Source: Calothrix membranacea FACHB-236
GTDB lineage: Bacteria > Cyanobacteriota > Cyanobacteriia > Cyanobacteriales > Nostocaceae
DNA length: 64,000 nucleotides
Assembly: GCF_014696315.1 (NCBI RefSeq)
Contig: NZ_JACJPX010000042.1
Span: forward strand, 1-64,000
Direction: 5' to 3'
Numbering within the stretch: the first letter of the stretch is position 1; each line of letters opens with the position of its first letter. A model generated the notes under the pieces. It was not told the DNA's origin, made no database searches, and saw only the letters and a program-made list of their open reading frames with translations. A program made the position numbers and the translations under genes. Shown here in pieces: positions 2,501 through 63,005 of this stretch.

Positions 2501-3727
2501 TTAATTACCAGAGAAATTTGTTAATACCCACTCATATTCTCGCTGAATAGACGTGAGCAAATCTATTTTCATTTCTGGTGGTAAAACATCCCATGTATAA
2601 GTCTCAATCTCTAGATGTTGACAAGCATGATTTTGCTGAAGCAAATGCAAAATTGTGACAATATCATCTTGTGTAGACTGCAAAATTTGATAATCACGAA
2701 TGAAAATTGGCACATGAAAATGAGTGCGCCATTCTTCAGCAAGGGATTGTTGCAGTTGCGGTAACGCCGTCATTAAATCAGGATAATGATGTAGCGTTCC
2801 ATCAGCACGCAGTTCTATAACTTGATGCAAATAAGTCGATTCAGCAAAAGGTTGTAAGCGTTCAACTATTAAACTACGCTGCTCAATTTCAGGTGGTATT
2901 TTTACTTGAATTGCTGCACTAATTTGCATCTTGCCAATTTTAATCCCGGCTGATGCCAAGCGTGCAAATACAGACTCAGGTTGCTCATATTCAACTGAAA
3001 AATGGCAAGTATCATAGCAAATGCGTACATGGTCTAGCAATTTACTTTCCGCTAAACTATGCTCAATATCTAATTGCTCAGCTAAATAATTACCAGCTAT
3101 AGGTAATAACCAATTTTGATAAAATTCAATTACTTCTGATGTATTTTCAATTAGCCCATCAGGTTCAGGTTCTAAATCAATATGCAACAACTTCCCTGTA
3201 GCTTGCTGAATCCGGATCATTTCTGCAACAACTGCTGCAATATTCAAACAGCTAGTCTTAAAAACTATCTCTTTTTTTTCTTCTTTATCTAACCACCAAG
3301 GTTTATATGATAAAGGTAATGTAGAAATTCCCCCATCTAAACTTTCAGGTAATAGAGCCGCTAAAATTTTTGCCAAATTTAATGTATATTCTACTCGTTC
3401 TTGATTTGACCAATCTGGTGAATAAACTTGGTCTTTAACAACTTGGCGATGAAACCCTCCGTAAGGAAAACCATTTAAAGTGAAAACATATAAATCATTT
3501 TGTGTTAGCCAAGCTTGAAATTGAGCTAAATTTTCACCTACTAAAAGTTCTTTTGCGGCTGTATCTGCTAACCGTAAACCAATGCCAAAAGCTGCTTCAG
3601 GAGATAAACGAGATTTGAGTTCAGGAATATATTTTTTTAAATTGGCAAAAACTTCTCCCCAACTTTCACCAGGATGAATATTTGAGCAATAAGTTAGGTG
3701 AAAGTTGCTATTAGGTGCAATTTTCAT
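2501..3727 (-). CDS. eboE: EboE-type TIM-barrel (xylose isomerase-like) protein
   Basis: The 408-residue protein matches the EboE type: a metabolite/sugar-phosphate-isomerase-like TIM barrel. Diagnostic stretches are LTYCSNIHPGESW at the N-terminus, TLNGFPYGGFH near residues 89-99, HIDLEPEPDGLIE near 187-199, and CYDTCHFSVEYE near 249-260. The acidic and histidine residues of the last two fit the metal site of this superfamily. There is no signal or membrane segment. The ATG at 3725-3727 begins the match. It is separated from eboF by 15 bases and from eboC by 121 bases that hold a dispersed repeat. The chemical reaction is unknown; the name rests on family resemblance and on the ebo context. 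Confidence 0.85.
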   Translation of the reverse strand: MKIAPNSNFHLTYCSNIHPGESWGEVFANLKKYIPELKSRLSPEAAFGIGLRLADTAAKELLVGENLAQFQAWLTQNDLYVFTLNGFPYGGFHRQVVKDQVYSPDWSNQERVEYTLNLAKILAALLPESLDGGISTLPLSYKPWWLDKEEKKEIVFKTSCLNIAAVVAEMIRIQQATGKLLHIDLEPEPDGLIENTSEVIEFYQNWLLPIAGNYLAEQLDIEHSLAESKLLDHVRICYDTCHFSVEYEQPESVFARLASAGIKIGKMQISAAIQVKIPPEIEQRSLIVERLQPFAESTYLHQVIELRADGTLHHYPDLMTALPQLQQSLAEEWRTHFHVPIFIRDYQILQSTQDDIVTILHLLQQNHACQHLEIETYTWDVLPPEMKIDLLTSIQREYEWVLTNFSGN

Positions 3728-38578: not shown

Positions 38579-40612
38579 ATGCCTGCGCCTACTATCACCC
38601 CTAAAGTCACTTCCTTCCCGCTGACAGCCGTAGTCGGACAAGAAGCGATTAAATTAGCTTTACTCTTAGCAGCAGTCGATCCTGGATTGGGTGGAGTGGC
38701 GATCGCAGGCCGTCGTGGTACGGCAAAATCTGTGATGGCGCGTGCTATTCACGCCCTGCTACCACCCATTGAAGTTGTTCAAGACTCGCTTAGTAACTGT
38801 GACCCCAATCAACCCCAAGATTGGGACGATCTACTTTTAGCAGAATACGCAGATAAAGATATTCAAGAAGTCCCCACTGCAATTGTCCCTGCGCCTTTTG
38901 TGCAAATTCCCCTCGGGGTGACAGAAGACAGACTCCTCGGTTCTGTGGATGTGGAAAAGTCGGTAAAACAAGGCGACACTGTATTTCAGCCTGGGTTACT
39001 CGCTACAGCCAATCGCGGTGTGCTGTATGTGGATGAAATCAACTTATTAGATGACCAAATTAGCAATCAGCTACTAACAGTATTATCGGAAGGACGCAAC
39101 CAAATTGAACGGGAAGGGATAAGTTTTCAACATCCCTGCAAACCTTTGTTTATTGCTACCTACAACCCAGAAGAAGGCGCATTACGGGAGCATTTGCTAG
39201 ATAGAATTGCGATCGCACTCTCAGCAGATGGAGTATTAGGCTTAGATCAAAGAGTACAAGCAGTTGAACAAGCGATCGCTTATTCTGTATCTCCCCAAGA
39301 GTTCCTAGAACAATATAACGAAGACTTAGACGGACTCAAAACTCAAATTATCCTGGCGCGGGAATGGTTAAAAGATGTCATCATTACCCACGATCAAATT
39401 GCTTACTTGGTAAACGAAGCCATTCGTGGCGGCGTTCAAGGACACCGCGCTGAGTTGTTTGCGGTGCGCGTTGCGAAAGCGGCTGCGGCTTTGGAAGGAC
39501 GCAACACCGTCAACGCAGAAGACTTGCGCCGGGCTGTGGAATTGGTGATTGTCCCCCGCGCCACAGTTGTGCAGACACCGCCACCAGAACAACAAGCACC
39601 GCCACCACCCCCTCCACCACCCCAGCCACCAGAAAATCAAGACGAATCTGAACAAGAGGAACAGGAAGAAGAACAAGAACAAGAGGAACAAGAACAACAA
39701 GAACCACCCAGCATCCCCGAAGAATTTATCTTCGATCCGGAAGGGGTAATCCTTGATGATACTGTGCTTTATTTTACACAGATGGCAAAGAGGCAAGGTA
39801 AGTCTGGTAGCCGCAGTATTATCTTCTCGGAAGACCGAGGACGATATATTAAGCCCATGTTGCCCAAGGGCAAAGTCAGACGCATTGCCGTAGATGCCAC
39901 ACTCAGAGCCGCTGCACCGTATCAAAAAGCACGCAGAGAAAGACACCCTGATCGCAAAGTCATAGTTGAACAGGGAGACATCCGCGCCAAGCGGTTAGTA
40001 CGCAAAGCCGGGGCGTTGGTAGTATTTGTAGTAGATGCTTCTGGCTCCATGGCCCTCAACCGGATGCAATCAGCTAAAGGTGCAGTCATGCAACTTTTGA
40101 CCGAAGCATACCAAAACCGCGACCAAATAGCCTTAATTCCTTTTCGTGGCGAACAAGCAGAGGTATTATTACCTCCTACTCGTTCCATTGCTTTAGCACG
40201 TAACCGTTTGGAAAGACTACCTTGTGGTGGCGGTTCACCCTTAGCGCATGGTTTAACCCAAGCTGTACGCGTTGGGTTAAATGCTCAAATGAGTGGAGAT
40301 ATTGGGCAAGTTGTGGTTGTAGCCATTACCGATGGCCGGGGTAATATACCCTTAGCCCGTTCCTTAGGTGAACCACAGGAACCAGGAGAAAAGCCAGATA
40401 TCAAAAGCGAATTATTAGAAATTGCGGCGAGAATTCGCGCTTTGGGAATACAGCTGTTAGTAATTGATACTGAAAGTAAATTTGTTTCCACTGGCTTTGC
40501 CAAAGAATTAGCACAAACAGCCGGAGGTAAATATTATCATTTACCGAAAGCGACCGATAAAGCAATTGCTGCCATGACTAAAGGTGCGATCGCGGATTTA
40601 AAATCTCGTTGA
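38579..40612 (+). CDS. chlD: Magnesium chelatase subunit D
   Basis: The 677-residue protein inserts Mg2+ into protoporphyrin IX with ChlI and ChlH, the first committed step to chlorophyll. The N-terminal AAA+ domain (about 1-330) has [20 protein letters not shown] and [13 protein letters not shown] linker of alternating proline, glutamine and glutamate runs from about 335 to 385. A von Willebrand A domain has [13 protein letters not shown] near 483, the MIDAS motif. The length and order are the normal ChlD ones. The minus-strand Uma2 fragment lies upstream, so the 96-base gap must hold its promoter. Confidence 0.96.
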
Positions 40613-40648
40613 GTAGAGATGAGGTAGATGAGGGGGATGAGGGAGAGG
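40613..40648. repeat. Left 9-bp tandem array of the first four-helix-bundle cassette
   Basis: The units are AGAGATGAG, GTAGATGAG, GGGGATGAG and a partial GGAGAGG. The array begins at the base after the chlD stop and ends at the base before the stop codon of the four-helix-bundle gene. Its inverted partner is at 41036-41070. Confidence 0.85.
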
Positions 40649-41044
40649 TTAATGTTTAATTAGCCAAGGTGATGGCTTGTTGATTATGTGTACTAAGCCG
40701 CTAATAACTTTATTGTATGTACCATAGAGTTCTCGGCCTATTTCAATATCCATGTAGTTACACTTAACAGCAAACTCAATCCAAGTCTGAGTCTCCGCCG
40801 ATTCTGCTTCACAGTCATTCAACTTAGCTACAAAAGCTGCTGGATATCTTCTTTTACGCCATCCTTCAGCAAAATTGGCACAAACTGAACGTGAAGAACG
40901 ACGAATCTGATCGGTGAGTGAATAGCGTTCTTCTACTGGAAAATTTTTAGATAGTTCAAAAATATTCATGGCTCCATCAAAAGCCATTTTATATACTACT
41001 AAATCTTTATGGTCTTTAATAACTTTTCCACTATTCTCCCTCAT
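40649..41044 (-). CDS. Four-helix-bundle protein (23S rRNA IVP/S23 family), copy 1
   Basis: The 131-residue protein has the IVP/S23 pattern: DLVVYKMAFDGAMNIFELSKNFP, EERYSLTDQIRRSSRSVCANFAEGW, FVAKLNDCEAESAETQTWIEFA and ELYGTYNKVISGLVHIINKP. This is the fold of the proteins found in 23S rRNA intervening sequences and of the Avd subunit of diversity-generating retroelements. No reverse transcriptase or rRNA gene is nearby. A paralogue lies at 54222-54608. The start codon is inside the flanking repeat array (GGAGATGAGGGAG), and the stop abuts the opposite array. The biological function is unknown. Confidence 0.88.
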   Translation of the reverse strand: MRENSGKVIKDHKDLVVYKMAFDGAMNIFELSKNFPVEERYSLTDQIRRSSRSVCANFAEGWRKRRYPAAFVAKLNDCEAESAETQTWIEFAVKCNYMDIEIGRELYGTYNKVISGLVHIINKPSPWLIKH

Positions 41045-41070
41045 CTCCCTTATCTACCTCATCTCCCTTT
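41036..41070. repeat. Right 9-bp tandem array of the first cassette (inverted)
   Basis: The units are CTCCCTCAT, CTCCCTTAT, CTACCTCAT and CTCCCTTT. They are the reverse complement of the units at 40613-40648. The array overlaps the first three codons of the four-helix-bundle gene and ends five bases before the sigF stop codon. Confidence 0.85.
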
Positions 41071-41075
41071 GCTAC

Positions 41076-41861
41076 TTATGATCCACTAGCTACAGGCTGC
41101 GGTTGCAAATAGCAAATTAAATCTTGAATTCCCTTTTGCAGATATCGCGTTACTGTCATCGGACTGGTGCCAATATTTTTAGCTGCATCTTTACGGGAAA
41201 GTTCTTTTAAAAATACTAATTCAACTGCCATACGTGGCTTTTCTTCTAATAAACTGATAGCGCCTTGTAGTTGTTGGCGTTCTTCTTCTTGTTGCTGAAG
41301 TGTACTAGAACGAGGACAAGGAAGGGCTTCACCTAAAGTTATTTGGCAATCAACATAATGAACTGCTGTAGCATCTAAACTTAAAGGCATCCGATTTTGA
41401 GCAGCTAATTTAGTTTCTTGCCATTCTTGGACAGAGACATGCAACTGTTTTGCAATTTCGGAATCTTTAGGAGGGCGACCTAAAGCAATTGATAATTCTT
41501 TGCGAACCTTTTGCCCCTCATTATATAATTCTTGCCAACGCCGGGGAATTTTTAATAGAGTACTGCGATCGCGCAGAAAATGCAGCATCTCACCACGAAT
41601 ATATGGTACAGCGAAGGAACTAAACGCATATCCTTGGCTGGGATCAAAGCGTTCAATGGCTCTAATCAAACCAAAATAACCGATTTGTTCTAAATCTTCA
41701 TAAGGTTCATTACATTGATGGCTAAATTTGTGAGCCATCTTCCGTACTAAACCAGTATGTAGCTGTACAAGTTGATTACGAAGTTTAATAGAAGGATTCT
41801 GGTGGTATAAGTGTAATAGCTCTATACCATCTATTCGCACAGAGGACTCACTTGCTGCCAT
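41076..41861 (-). CDS. sigF: Group 3 sigma factor, SigF type
   Basis: The product is 261 residues. Region 2 has NQLVQLHTGLVRKMAHKFSH and YEDLEQIGYFGLIRAIERFDPSQGYAFSSFAVPYIRGEMLHFLRD. Region 3 has PRRWQELYNEGQKVRKELSIALGRPP. Region 4 has ELVFLKELSRKDAAKNIGTSPMTVTRYLQKGI. In cyanobacteria SigF supports motility and pilus genes. The frame is open to 42020, but the ATG at 41859-41861 with AAGGAA about nine bases before it gives the length expected for SigF, so the extra 53 codons are probably untranslated. No anti-sigma gene is adjacent. Confidence 0.85.
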   Translation of the reverse strand: MAASESSVRIDGIELLHLYHQNPSIKLRNQLVQLHTGLVRKMAHKFSHQCNEPYEDLEQIGYFGLIRAIERFDPSQGYAFSSFAVPYIRGEMLHFLRDRSTLLKIPRRWQELYNEGQKVRKELSIALGRPPKDSEIAKQLHVSVQEWQETKLAAQNRMPLSLDATAVHYVDCQITLGEALPCPRSSTLQQQEEERQQLQGAISLLEEKPRMAVELVFLKELSRKDAAKNIGTSPMTVTRYLQKGIQDLICYLQPQPVASGS

Positions 41862-42564
41862 ATAAAAATTCCTTTGTTGTAACTCCTTTTTCTGAAAAAA
41901 TGGAGTTGCGTATTTTGTTATCAAGCTGTAATTATTTTCCTTAGACGAGACTGAATAAACCATCGTCGTTTTACTGAACTTATCAGGGTCTCGAAGCTCT
42001 AATTCAGTATTTACACGCATGATTTTTTATTTATCTATGTTGTCGGTGAAATTTATTTTCTCCACAACAATTTGCAGAAGCTGATTACTTTCAGTTCTGG
42101 CAACACACCTTAATTGTTTCTGCTTAAAAATACATACATTTCTCAACGAGTAACTTGCTTGCTGAGTGAAATGGGAAAAAAATACTGCAAATACATCGCG
42201 GAAATAAAATTGCTCATCTTGCTATCAGAGCTAGCTATAACAGCATGTGCGGATATTACCTGATGATTAACAAGTTATCTCAATAGGGCTATTTTGAATG
42301 TTTTTAGTTTGCTTGCTAAATTTTACCTATCCTGACCTTTGCCCTTGAACAGAAAGCACCAAGAATTCTCTGTCAGTACGAACAATACTGTAGAGTTTCC
42401 AAAACCTCAAGACTAAAATTTTTTAAGCACAAAATTATCATTCTGATTTGATAAGTACATCAAAAAACATAATTTATCTAGCCGTACTCCCTGGTTACTA
42501 GCCGCAGATATTGGTAAAAATGAGAGTAAGGCAGAATGTTTATCTGTAAAACACGTTTTTCAAT
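41862..42564. promoter_or_regulatory. Upstream region of sigF and the Bax-inhibitor gene
   Basis: This region of about 700 bases lies between the divergent sigF (minus) and Bax-inhibitor-1-type gene (plus). It contains promoters for both and no supported gene. The stretch 41862-42020 is open in the sigF frame but is probably leader. Confidence 0.4.
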
Positions 42565-44645: not shown

Positions 44646-44707
44646 GGGGACTGGGGATTGGGGGGATGAGGGGGATGAGGGGACAAATGACAAATGACAA
44701 ATGACAA
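44646..44707. repeat. STRR heptamers (ACAAATG) before the AhpD-like gene
   Basis: GGGGACTGGGGATTGGGG-type units are followed by GGGATGAGGGG and then four ACAAATG heptamers at about 44682-44709. The array fills the gap after prfB, and its last unit supplies the next gene's start codon. Confidence 0.75.
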
Positions 44708-54148: not shown

Positions 54149-54180
54149 AAACCCCTCCTCGCAACTGAAGAGGGGTTTTT
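54149..54180 (+). terminator. Intrinsic terminator after the PRC-barrel gene
   Basis: AAACCCCTC and GAGGGGTTTTT form a stem of about eight bases with a 12-base loop, five bases after the stop codon. Confidence 0.9.
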
Positions 54181-54187
54181 AATTGCA

Positions 54188-54215
54188 GGACAAGGGGGCA
54201 AGGGGACAAGGGGAG
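54188..54215. repeat. Left 8-bp tandem array of the second four-helix-bundle cassette
   Basis: The units are GGACAAGG, GGGCAAGG, GGACAAGG and partial GGAG. The array lies eight bases beyond the terminator of the PRC-barrel gene and ends six bases before the four-helix-bundle stop. Its inverted partner is at 54609-54660. Confidence 0.85.
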
Positions 54216-54221
54216 TATTTT

Positions 54222-54608
54222 TTATTGCCGAATTATCCAAACAGAAGGGTTATTAATCATTTTGACTAACTGTCCAAGAACTCGATTATAAAGTCTATAT
54301 AATTCTCGCCCTTGATGGAGATCCAGGTAGTTGCATTTCACTGCAAACTTTAGCCAGACTTGAGTTTCTGCCGCTTCTGATTCACAATCATTAAGTTTAG
54401 CAATAAAGGCTGCTTTATATCTCCGTTTACGCCAAGCCTCCGCTAAGTTAGCGCATACTGAACGAGAGGAACGACGAAGTTGATCCGTTAAAGAATATCG
54501 TTCTTCTACAGGAAATTTCTTCGAGATTTCAAAGATTTCCATCGCTGCGGAAAAAGCCTGTTGATAAACTTCTAAATCTTCATGAGTCTTTATAGATTCT
54601 TTTTTCAT
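54222..54608 (-). CDS. Four-helix-bundle protein (23S rRNA IVP/S23 family), copy 2
   Basis: The 128-residue protein is a clear paralogue of the one at 40649-41044. It shares VEERYSLTDQ, RRSSRSVCAN, WRKRRY, AFIAKLNDCE and FAVKCNYLDL. The family is the same IVP/S23 fold as the Avd subunit of diversity-generating retroelements, but no reverse transcriptase lies near. The ATG (54606-54608) abuts an array of 8-bp repeats in inverted orientation, and the stop is six bases from the matching array. Function unknown. Confidence 0.88.
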   Translation of the reverse strand: MKKESIKTHEDLEVYQQAFSAAMEIFEISKKFPVEERYSLTDQLRRSSRSVCANLAEAWRKRRYKAAFIAKLNDCESEAAETQVWLKFAVKCNYLDLHQGRELYRLYNRVLGQLVKMINNPSVWIIRQ

Positions 54609-54660
54609 CCCCGTGTCTCCTTGTCCCCTTGTCTCCTTGTCTCCTTGTCCCCTTGTCCCG
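54609..54660. repeat. Right 8-bp tandem array of the second cassette (inverted)
   Basis: Six copies of TGTCTCCT/TGTCCCCT-type octamers, complementary to 54188-54215, start at the base after the ATG of the four-helix-bundle gene. The array ends five bases before the stop codon of the next gene. Confidence 0.85.
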
Positions 54661-58795: not shown

Positions 58796-59134
58796 TCACC
58801 TCAAAGCCTGAAGATTGGAGTTCAAAGCCTGAAGCTTACAGCTTTTATCTCGAACATTGCAGCTTTTATCTTGGAAGTTGCGCCTTTTAGCCTCAACGTT
58901 GCAGCTTTTATCTTGAACGTTGCGCCTTTTATCCTCATCATTGCGGCTTTGATGCGGAAAATTGCGGCTTTTATCTTGAACGTTGCGGCTTTTTGCTTGA
59001 AAGTTGAGAAAATGAGCAAGAGCAATCGCACTTTGATGGCAACTGATGAGTGAATTAGCAACAGTCATGGTGATGGGAAGGGAATTAAAACAGGCGATCG
59101 CACGATTCGCGGCTTGTTTTGCAACGCTAGCCAT
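58796..59134 (-). other. Doubtful frame encoding heptapeptide repeats
   Basis: The 112-residue frame starts MASVAKQAANRAIACFNSLP and ends in eight or so heptapeptides like KSRNVQD/KSCNVRD, translated from the 21-bp repeat. Another minus-strand frame (58822-59061) is open over the same bases, which lowers confidence. No family is recognised. It could be a real low-complexity protein or only an effect of the repeat period. Confidence 0.3.
58836..59003. repeat. Eight tandem 21-bp imperfect repeats
   Basis: The unit is TTGCAGCTTTTATCTTGAAC plus G, with variants GCGCC/GCGGC. Eight copies in a row can be counted, and two further units of a related type (TCAAAGCCTGAAG) stand at 58801-58835. Because 21 is a multiple of three, all minus-strand frames are partly open. 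A frame at 58796-59134 would encode KSRNVQD-like heptapeptides, but the coding status is doubtful. Confidence 0.75.
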
Positions 59135-59214: not shown

Positions 59215-62085
59215 TTACTCTTTTGTGGCTTGCAAGCGCAAAAAATGCACCCGTCCTAATGCATCGCCTGCAACAACTCTCACCCCATCGGCCGCAACAG
59301 CACAGCAATATATTGCACAGTCCCCTGTGAAACTGGCAATTACTTCCCCGGTCTGCCAATTCCAGGCTTTGAGGGTGGAGTCACCGGAAGCAGAAATCAC
59401 GTACTTGCCATCAGCACTCAGGGCAACTGCTCTTACCGAGTAACTATGACCTTCTAGGGTAAGCAGTTGTTCACCAGTTTGCCAATTCCAAACTTTGAGG
59501 GTGTTGTCATCGGAAGCAGAAATCACGTACTTGCCATCAGCACTCAGGGCAACTGCATATACAAAACTACTATGACCTTCTAGGGTAAGGAGTTGTTCAC
59601 CAGTTTGCCAATTCCAGACTTTGAGGGTCTTGTCATCAGAAGCAGAAATCATGTACTTGCCATCAGCACTCAGGGCAACTGCTCTTACTAAGCTACTATG
59701 ACCGTATAGGGTAAGCAGTTGTTCACCAGTTTGCCAATTCCAGACTTTGAGGGTTTTGTCAGAGGAACCAGAAATTATGTACTTGCCATCAGCACTCAGG
59801 GCAACTGCATATACCAAGCTACTATGACCGTATAGGGTAAGCAGTTGTTCACCAGTTTGCCAATTCCAGACCTTGAGAGTGTTGTCAGAGGAACCAGAAA
59901 TCACGTACTTGCCATCAGCACTCAGGGCAACTGCTCTTACCGAGCTACTATGACCGTATAGGGTAAGCAGTTGTTCACCAGTTTGCAAATTCCAGACCTT
60001 GAGAGTGTTGTCATCGGAACCAGAAATCACGTACTTGCCATCAGCACTCAGGGCAACTGTATATACAAAGCTACTATGACCGTATAGGGTAAGCAGTTGT
60101 TCACCAGTTTGCCAATTCCAGACTTTGAGGGTGTTGTCATCGGAACCAGAAATCACGTACTTGCCATCAGTACTCAGGACAACTGCATTTACCCAGCTAC
60201 TATGACCGTATAGGGTACGCAGTTGTTCACCAGTTTGCCAATTCCAGACTTTGAGGGTTTTGTCACCAGAACCAGAAATCACGTACTTACCATCAGCACT
60301 CAGGGCAACTGCTTTTACCAAGCTACTATGACCTTCTAGGGTAAGCAGTTGTTCACCAGTTTGCCAATTCCAGACTTTGAGGGTCTTGTCATCGGAACCA
60401 GAAATCACGTACTTGCCATCTGGGGTGATGGTGAGTGCTGTTACCAAGCTACTATGACCTTCTAGGGTAAGCAGTTGTTCACCAGTTTGCCAATTCCAGA
60501 CTTTGAGGGTTTTGTCATCGGAACCGGAAATCACGTACTTGCCATCTGGGGTGATGGTGAGTGCTGTTACCAAGCTACTATGACCTTCTAGGGTAAGCAG
60601 TTGTTCACCAGTTTGCCAATTCCAGACTTTGAGGGTTTTGTCATGGGAACCAGAAATCACGTACTTGCCATCAGCACTCAAGGCAACTGCATATACCGAG
60701 CTACTATGACCCACTAGAGTACGTACTAAAGAACCGCCAGGGGGAGTTAAGCTTACTGTTTGTGGAAGGAAACCAGGAGTTTTGCATTGCTGCGCCTGCG
60801 TTAACAGTCTTTGAATTTCTTCTCTTGCAAAACCCAGCAACCGCCCTAATAATTGCCCCGCCAATTGCTGTTTATCCTCATTTAAAATATGTGCCGACAG
60901 CCGCAATGCACCTTGAATTAACTGTAAATTCTCATCACCTGGCAAAAAATCATAATCTGCAAGCAAAGCATTAATATTGATGTTCTCCAACTTCCCCTGC
61001 AACCAGCGAAAATCACACAGCAGTTGTTTTAATTCTCCTTCCCTTCCCCCAGCCAGCAAGTGATAGGCTAAATTCTCCCAGATATAGCCGTCATTTTCTA
61101 AACTATGCCAGCCTTGGGGGTATTTTTCGCTGTAAGCATTTAACAGCCGATTGTGTAAAACCCTTATCCCCTCACTTTCGGTTGCTAATGTCGCGTATTG
61201 CTTCCTGACATAATCAAACTGCAAGTCATGCAACCGCAAATTTCCCGCTTCATCCCGCAAAGCCAGAGATTTACTCACCAATTCATCAATAACATCTTGG
61301 CTATCAAACTCATCTAACCCCAAGGGTTGCCAAAAAGTCTGCAAAACTGCTTCGGGTATCGGTGTATCTTCCGGAAATACCGCAAAATCTAAATATCGCT
61401 GTTGGCAATTCTCATCCAAAGCCGCCACACTGACCGCAATTGCCTTAAGTAAATCGGGATAAGGATAATCGGGAAACTGTTGTTTGATTTTCTCTAAATC
61501 AGCACTGCGGAGTTTTTCTAAAATATTCTGCCAGCGATTTGCAGGTTTAGAGCGCATCATCGCGCCAACCATCGCTAATGCTAAAGGTAAATACCCACAT
61601 TCCCGCGCTACCTGCAAAGTAACATCATTGTGCGGGCTGGGTTGCAATATTTCCGGTTGATTTGACCACTTCGCCAACAGTTCTAACGCCTGCTGTTTCT
61701 CTAAAATTGCCAGATGATACTCTTCCCCTCCCAACCCCGTGACTATTGCCCCATCACGGGTAGTAATTAACATCTGACAGCATTCCCCCAACACATCAAA
61801 CGCCGTCGCATCATCCAAACGCCAGATATCATCCAAAATCAGCAAGCAAGCTTTCTGTGCAAACAACTCCCGTAACCGCGCTTTCGCCAATTCCACCTCG
61901 GTAAAAGCCGCTTGCTTCTCGCCCAACGCCGAAGCAATATAGGATTGCCAAGTTAAAATTTGGGGTGTTTGTCCAAATGTTACCCACAACACCCCATCAG
62001 GAAACGCCTTTCTGACTTCTTCATCCCGCGCTAAGGCTGTAGCTAAGACTGTTTTACCAATTCCGCCCATTCCTTGCACTCCCAC
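59215..62085 (-). CDS. NB-ARC/WD40 part of a frameshifted CHAT-NB-ARC-WD40 protein
   Basis: The frame encodes an NB-ARC (AP-ATPase) domain and WD40 repeats. The P-loop is GMGGIGKTV at the N-terminus, Walker B is ACLLILDDIWR near 77, MLITTRD near 108 is the sensor, and GYLPLALAMVGAMM near 172 matches the GLPL motif. Eleven near-identical WD40 units plus one degenerate unit (about 455-950) follow. The GTG at 62083-62085 is only an internal codon: the same frame stays open upstream to the T9 run (A9 in mRNA) at 62244-62252, where it joins the CHAT frame if one base is added. Fused, the chain is about 1204 residues. Such NLR-like proteins act in programmed cell death or defence. Confidence 0.88.
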   Translation of the reverse strand: MGVQGMGGIGKTVLATALARDEEVRKAFPDGVLWVTFGQTPQILTWQSYIASALGEKQAAFTEVELAKARLRELFAQKACLLILDDIWRLDDATAFDVLGECCQMLITTRDGAIVTGLGGEEYHLAILEKQQALELLAKWSNQPEILQPSPHNDVTLQVARECGYLPLALAMVGAMMRSKPANRWQNILEKLRSADLEKIKQQFPDYPYPDLLKAIAVSVAALDENCQQRYLDFAVFPEDTPIPEAVLQTFWQPLGLDEFDSQDVIDELVSKSLALRDEAGNLRLHDLQFDYVRKQYATLATESEGIRVLHNRLLNAYSEKYPQGWHSLENDGYIWENLAYHLLAGGREGELKQLLCDFRWLQGKLENININALLADYDFLPGDENLQLIQGALRLSAHILNEDKQQLAGQLLGRLLGFAREEIQRLLTQAQQCKTPGFLPQTVSLTPPGGSLVRTLVGHSSSVYAVALSADGKYVISGSHDKTLKVWNWQTGEQLLTLEGHSSLVTALTITPDGKYVISGSDDKTLKVWNWQTGEQLLTLEGHSSLVTALTITPDGKYVISGSDDKTLKVWNWQTGEQLLTLEGHSSLVKAVALSADGKYVISGSGDKTLKVWNWQTGEQLRTLYGHSSWVNAVVLSTDGKYVISGSDDNTLKVWNWQTGEQLLTLYGHSSFVYTVALSADGKYVISGSDDNTLKVWNLQTGEQLLTLYGHSSSVRAVALSADGKYVISGSSDNTLKVWNWQTGEQLLTLYGHSSLVYAVALSADGKYIISGSSDKTLKVWNWQTGEQLLTLYGHSSLVRAVALSADGKYMISASDDKTLKVWNWQTGEQLLTLEGHSSFVYAVALSADGKYVISASDDNTLKVWNWQTGEQLLTLEGHSYSVRAVALSADGKYVISASGDSTLKAWNWQTGEVIASFTGDCAIYCCAVAADGVRVVAGDALGRVHFLRLQATKE
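59336..60722. repeat. Eleven 126-bp tandem DNA repeats encoding WD40 units
   Basis: Each unit is 42 codons, with the core GKYVISGSDDKTLKVWNWQT then GEQLLTL. Differences concentrate at the residues around HSSxVxAV, at SGSxD and at the E/Y before GHSS. The DNA identity between units is very high, so copy number can change by recombination. The most degenerate unit is the last one. Confidence 0.88.
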
Positions 62086-62867: not shown

Positions 62868-63005
62868 GGGCATGGGGCATGGGGCATGGGGCATTGGGCA
62901 TGGGGAAGGGGTAATGGGTAATGGGTAATGGGTAATTTCTTCTTGTCTCCCTTATCTCCCTCATCTCCCTTATCTCCCTCATCTCCCTCATCTCCCTCAT
63001 CTCCC
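62868..63005. repeat. STRR arrays upstream of the CHAT gene
   Basis: GCATGGG and TAATGGG heptamers cover about 62868-62936. They are followed by seven or so 9-bp units TCTCCCTTA/TCTCCCTCA at about 62945-63005. The 9-bp unit is the same as that of the first four-helix-bundle cassette, but no such gene is present here. It is non-coding; the frames that cross it are repeat artefacts. Confidence 0.75.

Follow-up and report, generated by a model that had tools for sequence, protein, structure and literature searches.

The window, which is the whole stretch of 64,000 nucleotides of Calothrix membranacea DNA analyzed here, carries a gene of the IVP/S23 family in the spacer between chlD and sigF. The gene (40649–41044, reverse strand) encodes a four-helix-bundle protein of 131 residues. 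In profile searches, the ORF matches PF05635 (23S_rRNA_IVP) with an E-value of 1.6e-28 and 99.4 bits against a cut-off of 33.8, and TIGR02436 with 2.4e-26 and 92.1 bits against a cut-off of 24. Structures of relatives have been solved as 2gsc and 2rld, with five chains each. The Avd profile NF033474 and the bAvd profile PF22296 score this protein at 17.2 and 21.1 bits, below their cut-offs of 80 and 40, respectively. The gene is enclosed by two arrays of a 9-bp unit, which TRF places at 40616–40646 and 41035–41068. The 3′ arm relative to the IVP gene (40613–40648, reverse strand; arm proper 40616–40646) starts 3 nt past the stop of chlD (38579–40612, forward strand; TIGR02031, 1.9e-246), whose stop codon at 40612 abuts the element. 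The 5′ arm (41035–41069, reverse strand; arm proper 41035–41065) includes the ATG of the IVP gene at 41044 and ends a few nucleotides short of the stop of sigF at 41076. The latter gene (41076–42020, reverse strand; PRK07408 SigF, 2.6e-118) lies upstream of the IVP gene and is codirectional with it. In the best inverted alignment, 40616–40646 and 41035–41065 are identical at 29 of 31 positions with a score of 52, as compared with a maximum of 42 and no score of 50 or more at 3000 random positions of the window taken with the same geometry. In its predicted RNA fold, the element forms a terminal stem of 30 pairs that is interrupted by two single mismatches and carries the gene in its loop. The fold energy amounts to −142 kcal/mol (z −5.5), and none of 100 shuffles is equally stable. 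IVP is the one ORF of at least 60 residues inside the element, which contains no transposase. The original prediction of an IVP/S23 gene that is bounded by inverted 9-bp arrays, with arrays filling the whole spacer and one of them containing the start codon, thus describes the locus correctly.

The window features a second IVP element at 54188–54659, which had not been listed before. Its gene (54222–54608, reverse strand) encodes 128 residues and matches PF05635 at 54267–54581 with 1.8e-29. The 3′ arm (54188–54214, reverse strand; TRF) consists of an 8-bp unit, GGACAAGG on the forward strand, and aligns in inverted orientation, with a score of 39, to the part 54632–54658 of the 8-bp array that forms the 5′ arm (54608–54659, reverse strand; TRF). 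A terminator-like hairpin followed by T residues, recognized by eye at about 54150–54182, adjoins this 3′ arm. The 9-bp unit of the chlD–sigF element recurs in solo arrays detected by TRF and assigned to neither strand: as GGGGATGAG at 44653–44682, for which no inverted partner is listed, and on the other strand, as TCTCCCTCA, at 62946–63005, outside inverted pairs. In addition, the window contains a 126-bp tandem repeat of 10.8 copies with 91% matches at 59354–60711 (TRF) and a 21/42-bp repeat at 58842–59006.

Inverted Arms Around IVP Genes

The genome of the window (G000) has eight PF05635 genes. Six of them lie within inverted arrays as judged by eye, and a seventh has an array on one side and a contig end on the other. 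The genus provided 57 PF05635 matches, 54 of which were taken (two at contig ends and one weak match of 35 residues were left out). To these, 68 of 92 pattern stretches from a public genome collection were added. The two sets overlap in three genomes (L048 = L124, L023 = L117, and L062 = L095); these duplicates and three near-duplicates were removed from the unit/protein, target-duplication, and stop-codon tests and kept in the arm-score, unit-order, and G-polarity counts. Seven IVP matches—six at site S9 and one at S13—were left out of the reading. In a first comparison with mismatched flank pairs, 13 of 74 reached the 99th percentile and 27 the 95th. Since IVPs that are closely related have units in common, this control is overly strict, and other ORFs were therefore taken as the control: mechanical ORFs from the window and a 400-kb sample of G007 only.

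With 109 of the 54 + 68 loci having full 300-nt flanks, an inverted-arm score of at least 40 is found for 57/109 IVP genes and 3/331 other ORFs, and a score of at least 50 for 49/109 and 0/331. Among control ORFs of 300–500 nt, 1/60 reaches 40. The proposed check, namely whether IVP genes are flanked by inverted repeats more often than control genes, hence comes out in favor of the IVP genes. The excess is far smaller for direct flank repeats, where 7 of the 109 IVP genes and 5 of the 331 ORFs score at least 40. The 52 IVP genes with inverted-arm scores below 40 include decayed copies and an arm-less paralogue. This arm-less PF05635 gene (L008, L109, L125, L127, L128, and L129) is found at a single site in six of the eight genus genomes; it looks vertically inherited and is possibly a domesticated, nonmobile paralogue.

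The association extends beyond the genus. PF05635 matches occur in 51 of 98 cyanobacterial genomes, drawn evenly over the phylum, and in 66 of 96 genomes of the phylum to which an Opitutales MAG with an IVP element (L057) belongs. The loci scored are those of the best-scoring genomes, a subset of all matches, and comprise 28 of 29 cyanobacterial loci and 30 of 30 from the other phylum. In these subsets, scores of at least 35 are reached by 23/28 cyanobacterial loci versus 3.2% of mismatched flank pairs and by 15/30 loci of the Opitutales-MAG phylum versus 0.8%; their own direct repeats reach 35 in 2/28 and 3/30, respectively. Twenty loci from three genomes of the latter phylum, two of them already among the 30, yield 6/20 versus 2.6% of mismatched pairs. 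The L057 element itself has an inverted-arm score of only 29 and is set between long genes, which we take to be verrucomicrobial from their DUF1552/DUF1592-like appearance. For this reason, the element is probably not stray cyanobacterial DNA. Four of seven plasmid loci (L229, L230, L232, and L235) score at least 35 and three fall below, and single cases of arms on plasmids occur in Azospirillum lipoferum (47) and Gemmatirosa kalamazoonensis (61).

Three loci have an unusual setting. On a plasmid of Picosynechococcus PCC 7003 (L231, inverted-arm score 29), the IVP gene is located in a cas operon at the cas10/cmr3 junction, and on a plasmid of Anabaena sp. 90 (L235, score 57), it is located in a cas operon at the cas6/cas4 junction. 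In L226, from the genome of the Rhizobium MAG record with locus L065, the IVP frame seems to be split by an inverted array pair with a GTGTGGGAG-like unit, as judged by eye.

Units, Polarity, and Placement

In the unit-order set, 120 loci were scored and 63 reach at least 40. The arms of these 63 elements have units of 7, 8, or 9 bp in 18, 12, and 17 cases, respectively, and no clear period in 16; the median arm length is 40 nt. The G-rich strand points inward, i.e. the 5′ arm has more G than C, in 63/63 elements, and likewise in 22/23 cyanobacterial elements and 14/15 elements of the Opitutales-MAG phylum in the phylum samples. Placement relative to neighboring genes was determined for 53 elements with enough flank. 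Where the upstream neighbor is codirectional, the arm starts at a median of 1 nt past its stop (26/33 within 20 nt), and where the downstream neighbor is convergent, the arm ends at a median of 2 nt from its stop (15/19 within 20 nt). The remaining situation, divergent neighbors with no stop near, applies to 13/53 elements.

The unit differs between element clades, and the two arms of one element match. At different sites, unit similarity tracks protein similarity (n = 59, Mantel r = 0.534, p = 0.001), with a mean 6-mer overlap of units rising from 0.05 at less than 30% protein identity to 0.73 at more than 90%. Since unit and protein are associated even at unrelated sites, the arms demonstrably belong to the element, as far as sequence comparison reaches; the association may reflect linkage rather than recognition. 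One site is filled in all eight genus genomes. Its IVPs are related to each other, one being truncated and another containing an internal stop, and each has GTCAAGA, GTCAATA/G, or GTCATTT as the unit of its two arms, as judged by eye. The arms thus change together. Moreover, of the 44 elements in which the order of variant units could be compared, 18 have the same order in the two arms at p ≤ 0.05 and 26 do not; the 18 give the impression that one arm is a copy of its partner. The element ends are recognizable by an architecture of matched inverted arrays with an inward G-rich strand that mostly abut stops, and not by a fixed sequence.

History of the chlD–sigF Site

Among the eight genus genomes, the chlD–sigF spacer holds an IVP element in G000 and G003 and none in the other six. 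The spacers of these six contain a short repeat hairpin of 7-bp GTCAAGA-like units. In a tree of the flanks, G003 groups with G002 (support 0.975), apart from G000. The window's element, with its CGTTGA end toward chlD, is found at chlD–sigF in Nostoc favosum, Nostoc sp. LPT, and CHAB 5836 as well, and an IVP gene is present at this site in Dendronalium. For Nostoc favosum, Nostoc sp. LPT, and CHAB 5836, dS of the IVP gene is 0.55–0.71 versus 0.62–0.95 for the neighboring genes. A fresh insertion was considered and rejected on the grounds of the flank tree, the wide presence, and a dS near that of the neighbors. Since the same element occurs at this site in further genomes and its dS resembles that of its neighbors, it is by all appearances an old resident or an old exchange, that is, an old allele evidently exchanged or lost several times.

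The search for empty sites in relatives therefore gave a divided answer: IVP is absent in six of eight genomes, and the spacers are not clean but harbor another hairpin. The same division applies to the notion that insertion harmed neither chlD nor sigF. It agrees with the anatomy, whereas the insertion history it implies is no more than conceivable for an element that is old and has relatives whose seemingly empty sites hold a hairpin.

Mobility

Evidence for movement comes from other loci. Two elements of one Nostoc spongiaeforme genome, L044 and L051, are 97% identical over 508 bp, and their homology ends at −73 and +42 of the ORF; this one same-genome pair with unrelated flanks was found without systematic search. 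L044 adjoins MgtE, and its 96% relative from another genome, L045, adjoins a histidine kinase. L019 and L024, 96% identical to each other, have MetH and enoyl-CoA hydratase as neighbors, respectively. Near-identical copies of the putative element demonstrably occupy unrelated loci, and at least one gutted copy (L189) keeps both arms. According to flank clustering, many IVP sites are filled in only some of the eight genus genomes. Site S11 is filled in G004, and in G000 and G003, the aligned flanks meet with nothing in between, their edges differing by a few nucleotides; in G001, the same point holds an IVP-less hairpin with a different unit. At the site of L091 and L095, sister genomes carry different IVPs with different units. 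The orthologous-locus set comprised 60 loci, 22 with one flank and 38 complete, the latter being 7 with IVP and 31 without. Two of the 31 are clean, with nothing between the flanks, and three keep 27–110 nt of IVP. In addition, a dN/dS ratio was obtained for 16 pairs and is below 0.3 for 15 of them, which demonstrates purifying selection on the predicted IVP protein.

L045 has a 12-nt direct repeat, GAATTTCTCACT, at its left and right flanks; it resembles a half-palindrome and recurs in inverted orientation at the right side of L053. This sequence is perhaps a preferred target palindrome. A search of 56 elements for target-site duplications yielded one with a direct match scoring at least 8, in line with the chance expectation of 1.0%. 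At chlD–sigF, neither exact boundaries nor a target duplication emerged. The element contains no catalytic gene.

The idea that the gene and its arrays form a mobile unit is thus supported for the class by the enrichment of arms (57/109 versus 3/331) together with the clean alleles of S11, and the case is weaker at chlD–sigF itself, where the original prediction had located it. We consider it likely that gene and arrays behave as one mobile unit.

Selection without mobility would account for several of the same observations. The arrays would be bidirectional terminators or RNase III processing stems acting on the IVP gene and its neighbors, with arms made alike by structural selection, and IVP would have a regulatory or ribosomal function—a reading with which the strong RNA stem, the position right past stop codons, the purifying selection on the protein, and the presence of IVPs inside cas operons agree. 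It is very unlikely, however, in view of the copies of one IVP clade at unrelated loci, the patchy presence in eight sister genomes, and the lack of such arms at other small ORFs. A variant-unit order shared by the arms at p ≤ 0.05 (18/44) is likewise more than pairing alone would need.

Avd is bound to its reverse transcriptase, and by analogy, a hairpin RNA bound by IVP could be copied by a reverse transcriptase acting in trans. Such RNA-mediated (retro)mobility would be compatible with the family kinship of IVP and Avd, visible as weak matches, with the lack of target duplications, and with insertion at the ends of coding regions. No reverse transcriptase is encoded near the window: the sole PF00078 match of the genome lies on contig C141 and the window on C102. 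A genome with eight IVP genes and a single such match on another contig, and no sign of an RNA intermediate, makes this route quite unlikely.

Solo Arrays

The arrays of the elements have counterparts outside them. A 464-kb sample contains 115 arrays; 107 have no inverted partner, and two of the four inverted pairs are the window's IVP elements. Solo arrays are located within 20 nt of a stop in 33 of 81 cases as compared with 53 of 572 random intergenic 35-mers from the same sample, a preference weaker than that of IVP element arms. In the window and 20 pieces of G007 (L205–L224), 32 of 37 solo arrays are richer in G than in C when read along the gene strand. Across 13 cyanobacterial genomes, intergenic array density rises with the number of IVP genes (Spearman 0.60, p 0.03) and differs between genomes with and without IVP (p 0.0497), in statistics that ignore phylogeny; a single nested cluster inflates the density of G168. 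The hypothesis that IVP produces every solo array was rejected. G126, which belongs to the same family as the window's genome, has 56 intergenic arrays per 100 kb and no PF05635 match was found in it, so that solo arrays need no resident IVP.

The abundance of single units was counted in the eight genus genomes. Dimers of GATGAGGG number 226 in G000 and 729 in G003, both of which have the element, 236 in G004, where the element was not found, and 1–85 elsewhere. GGGACAA occurs 63 times in G000 with the element, 53 times in G004 without it, and 0–25 times elsewhere. GAGTGCT occurs 45 times in G004 and 9 times in G000, both with the element, 12 times in G003 without it, and 0–7 times elsewhere. 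GGGGCAT occurs 7 times each in G005 and G006, where S6 is empty, and 82–210 times in the other six. In these eight genomes, a connection of an element with the genome-wide frequency of its unit is no more than suggestive, as descent confounds it: three of the four units are scarce in G005 and G006.

These arrays bear on the possibility that IVP genes are cargo, which lands in preexisting repeat hairpins of the host or is swapped between them by homologous recombination, the arrays being the target. IVP-less hairpins do occur at orthologous sites, namely at chlD–sigF in six genomes, at S7 in G000 and G001, and at S11 in G001, and solo arrays of element units are common in several genomes, with the same stop-codon position and G-rich polarity as the arms. 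Inverted array pairs are nevertheless rare away from IVP, with four pairs among 115 arrays in 464 kb including the two of the window's elements, and few ready-made targets are thus on offer. Unit and protein clade also correspond at sites that are unrelated. The S7 hairpins, read by their sequences, apparently retain the element's own leader and therefore look like deletion derivatives. All in all, we regard the landing of IVP cargo in host hairpins as unlikely.

Proposed Explanation

The IVP gene and its two inverted arrays probably constitute a co-inherited, mobile, hairpin-ended element of approximately 440–830 bp that represents the free-standing counterpart of the 23S rRNA IVS. The IVP protein would bind the long stem formed by the arms of its own element, either as RNA or as single-stranded DNA, and would help in copying and insertion of the element, with catalysis provided in trans. 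The binding step is a tentative part of this mechanism, to which we give somewhat less than an even chance, and each conceivable source of catalysis—a reverse transcriptase, an HUH-type nuclease, or replication or repair—is unlikely when taken by itself. The arms may stay matched through copying of one arm from the other. Insertion would take place directly past stop codons, where a hairpin does the least harm, which would account for the tight fit between chlD and sigF. The element of the window would be an old resident that is probably read through from sigF.

The occurrence of a gene-in-hairpin unit at unrelated places in cyanobacteria and a few other phyla suggests a type of small selfish DNA element that has not been described. 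A wider claim is doubtful at present, although conceivable: a categorically new class of selfish elements in several bacterial phyla whose ends are defined by form rather than sequence, as matched inverted arrays of a private 7–9-bp unit with an inward G-rich strand and a place at stop codons, whose stem is recognized by IVP as the sole protein, whose specialized branch is the 23S rRNA IVS, and whose by-products are solo short tandem repeats.

Comparison With Known Systems

Short tandemly repeated repetitive sequences of heterocystous cyanobacteria are named STRR. The arms of IVP elements resemble them in being arrays of 7–9-bp units and share with them the preference for positions after stops and the G-rich polarity. 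Unlike the arms, sampled arrays are mostly solo (107/115 have no inverted partner).

IS elements, MITEs, and REP/REPIN sequences feature inverted termini, noncoding derivatives, and intergenic spread. All three properties are found in IVP elements, which differ in having no transposase, no target duplication, and termini that are not conserved between clades. Diversity-generating retroelements are related through Avd (PF22296, NF033474), a distant protein kin of IVP. They differ in that IVP remains below both Avd cut-offs and no reverse transcriptase lies near.

Dispersed heptamer direct repeats, partly cyanobacterial, have been described together with the speculation that a repeat-binding protein is their mobile part (PMC4679880); the terms S23, 23S rRNA, and four helix are all absent from the main text of that paper. 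Among the open-access matches listed, to which subscription papers do not belong and preprints barely do, there is no description of free-standing IVP elements with arms of tandem arrays. The original suggestion that a gene flanked by inverted STRR arrays is an undescribed element agrees with this result. Such elements provide a lead on the origin of the short tandem repeats in which cyanobacteria abound and on the way in which paired inverted arms, whatever their sequence, remain matched to each other.

The closest known system is the IVS of 23S rRNA. In PMC4990558, the Coxiella IVS is described as 428 nt long with an S23/IVP ORF in a stem loop of 28 bp and −143.26 kcal/mol. The paper calls it unclear what S23-coding IVSs do and where they come from, and it reports a hypothesis of Ralph and McClelland from 1993 according to which the ORF has a role in mobility. 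With free-standing elements of this gene-in-stem anatomy in several phyla, function and origin of the IVS become a testable question about mobile elements. The IVS and the IVP element share the protein family, the size, the ORF in a stem loop of terminal inverted repeats, and the patchy distribution. The stems are close as well, with 30 pairs and −142 kcal/mol at chlD–sigF versus 28 bp and −143.26 kcal/mol in Coxiella (PMC4990558). The element differs from the IVS in its location between protein genes, in its arms, which are 7–9-bp arrays of an element-specific unit, and in its ends, which mostly abut stops. The element is built like an IVS but, lying between chlD and sigF and not in an rRNA gene, is not an IVS.
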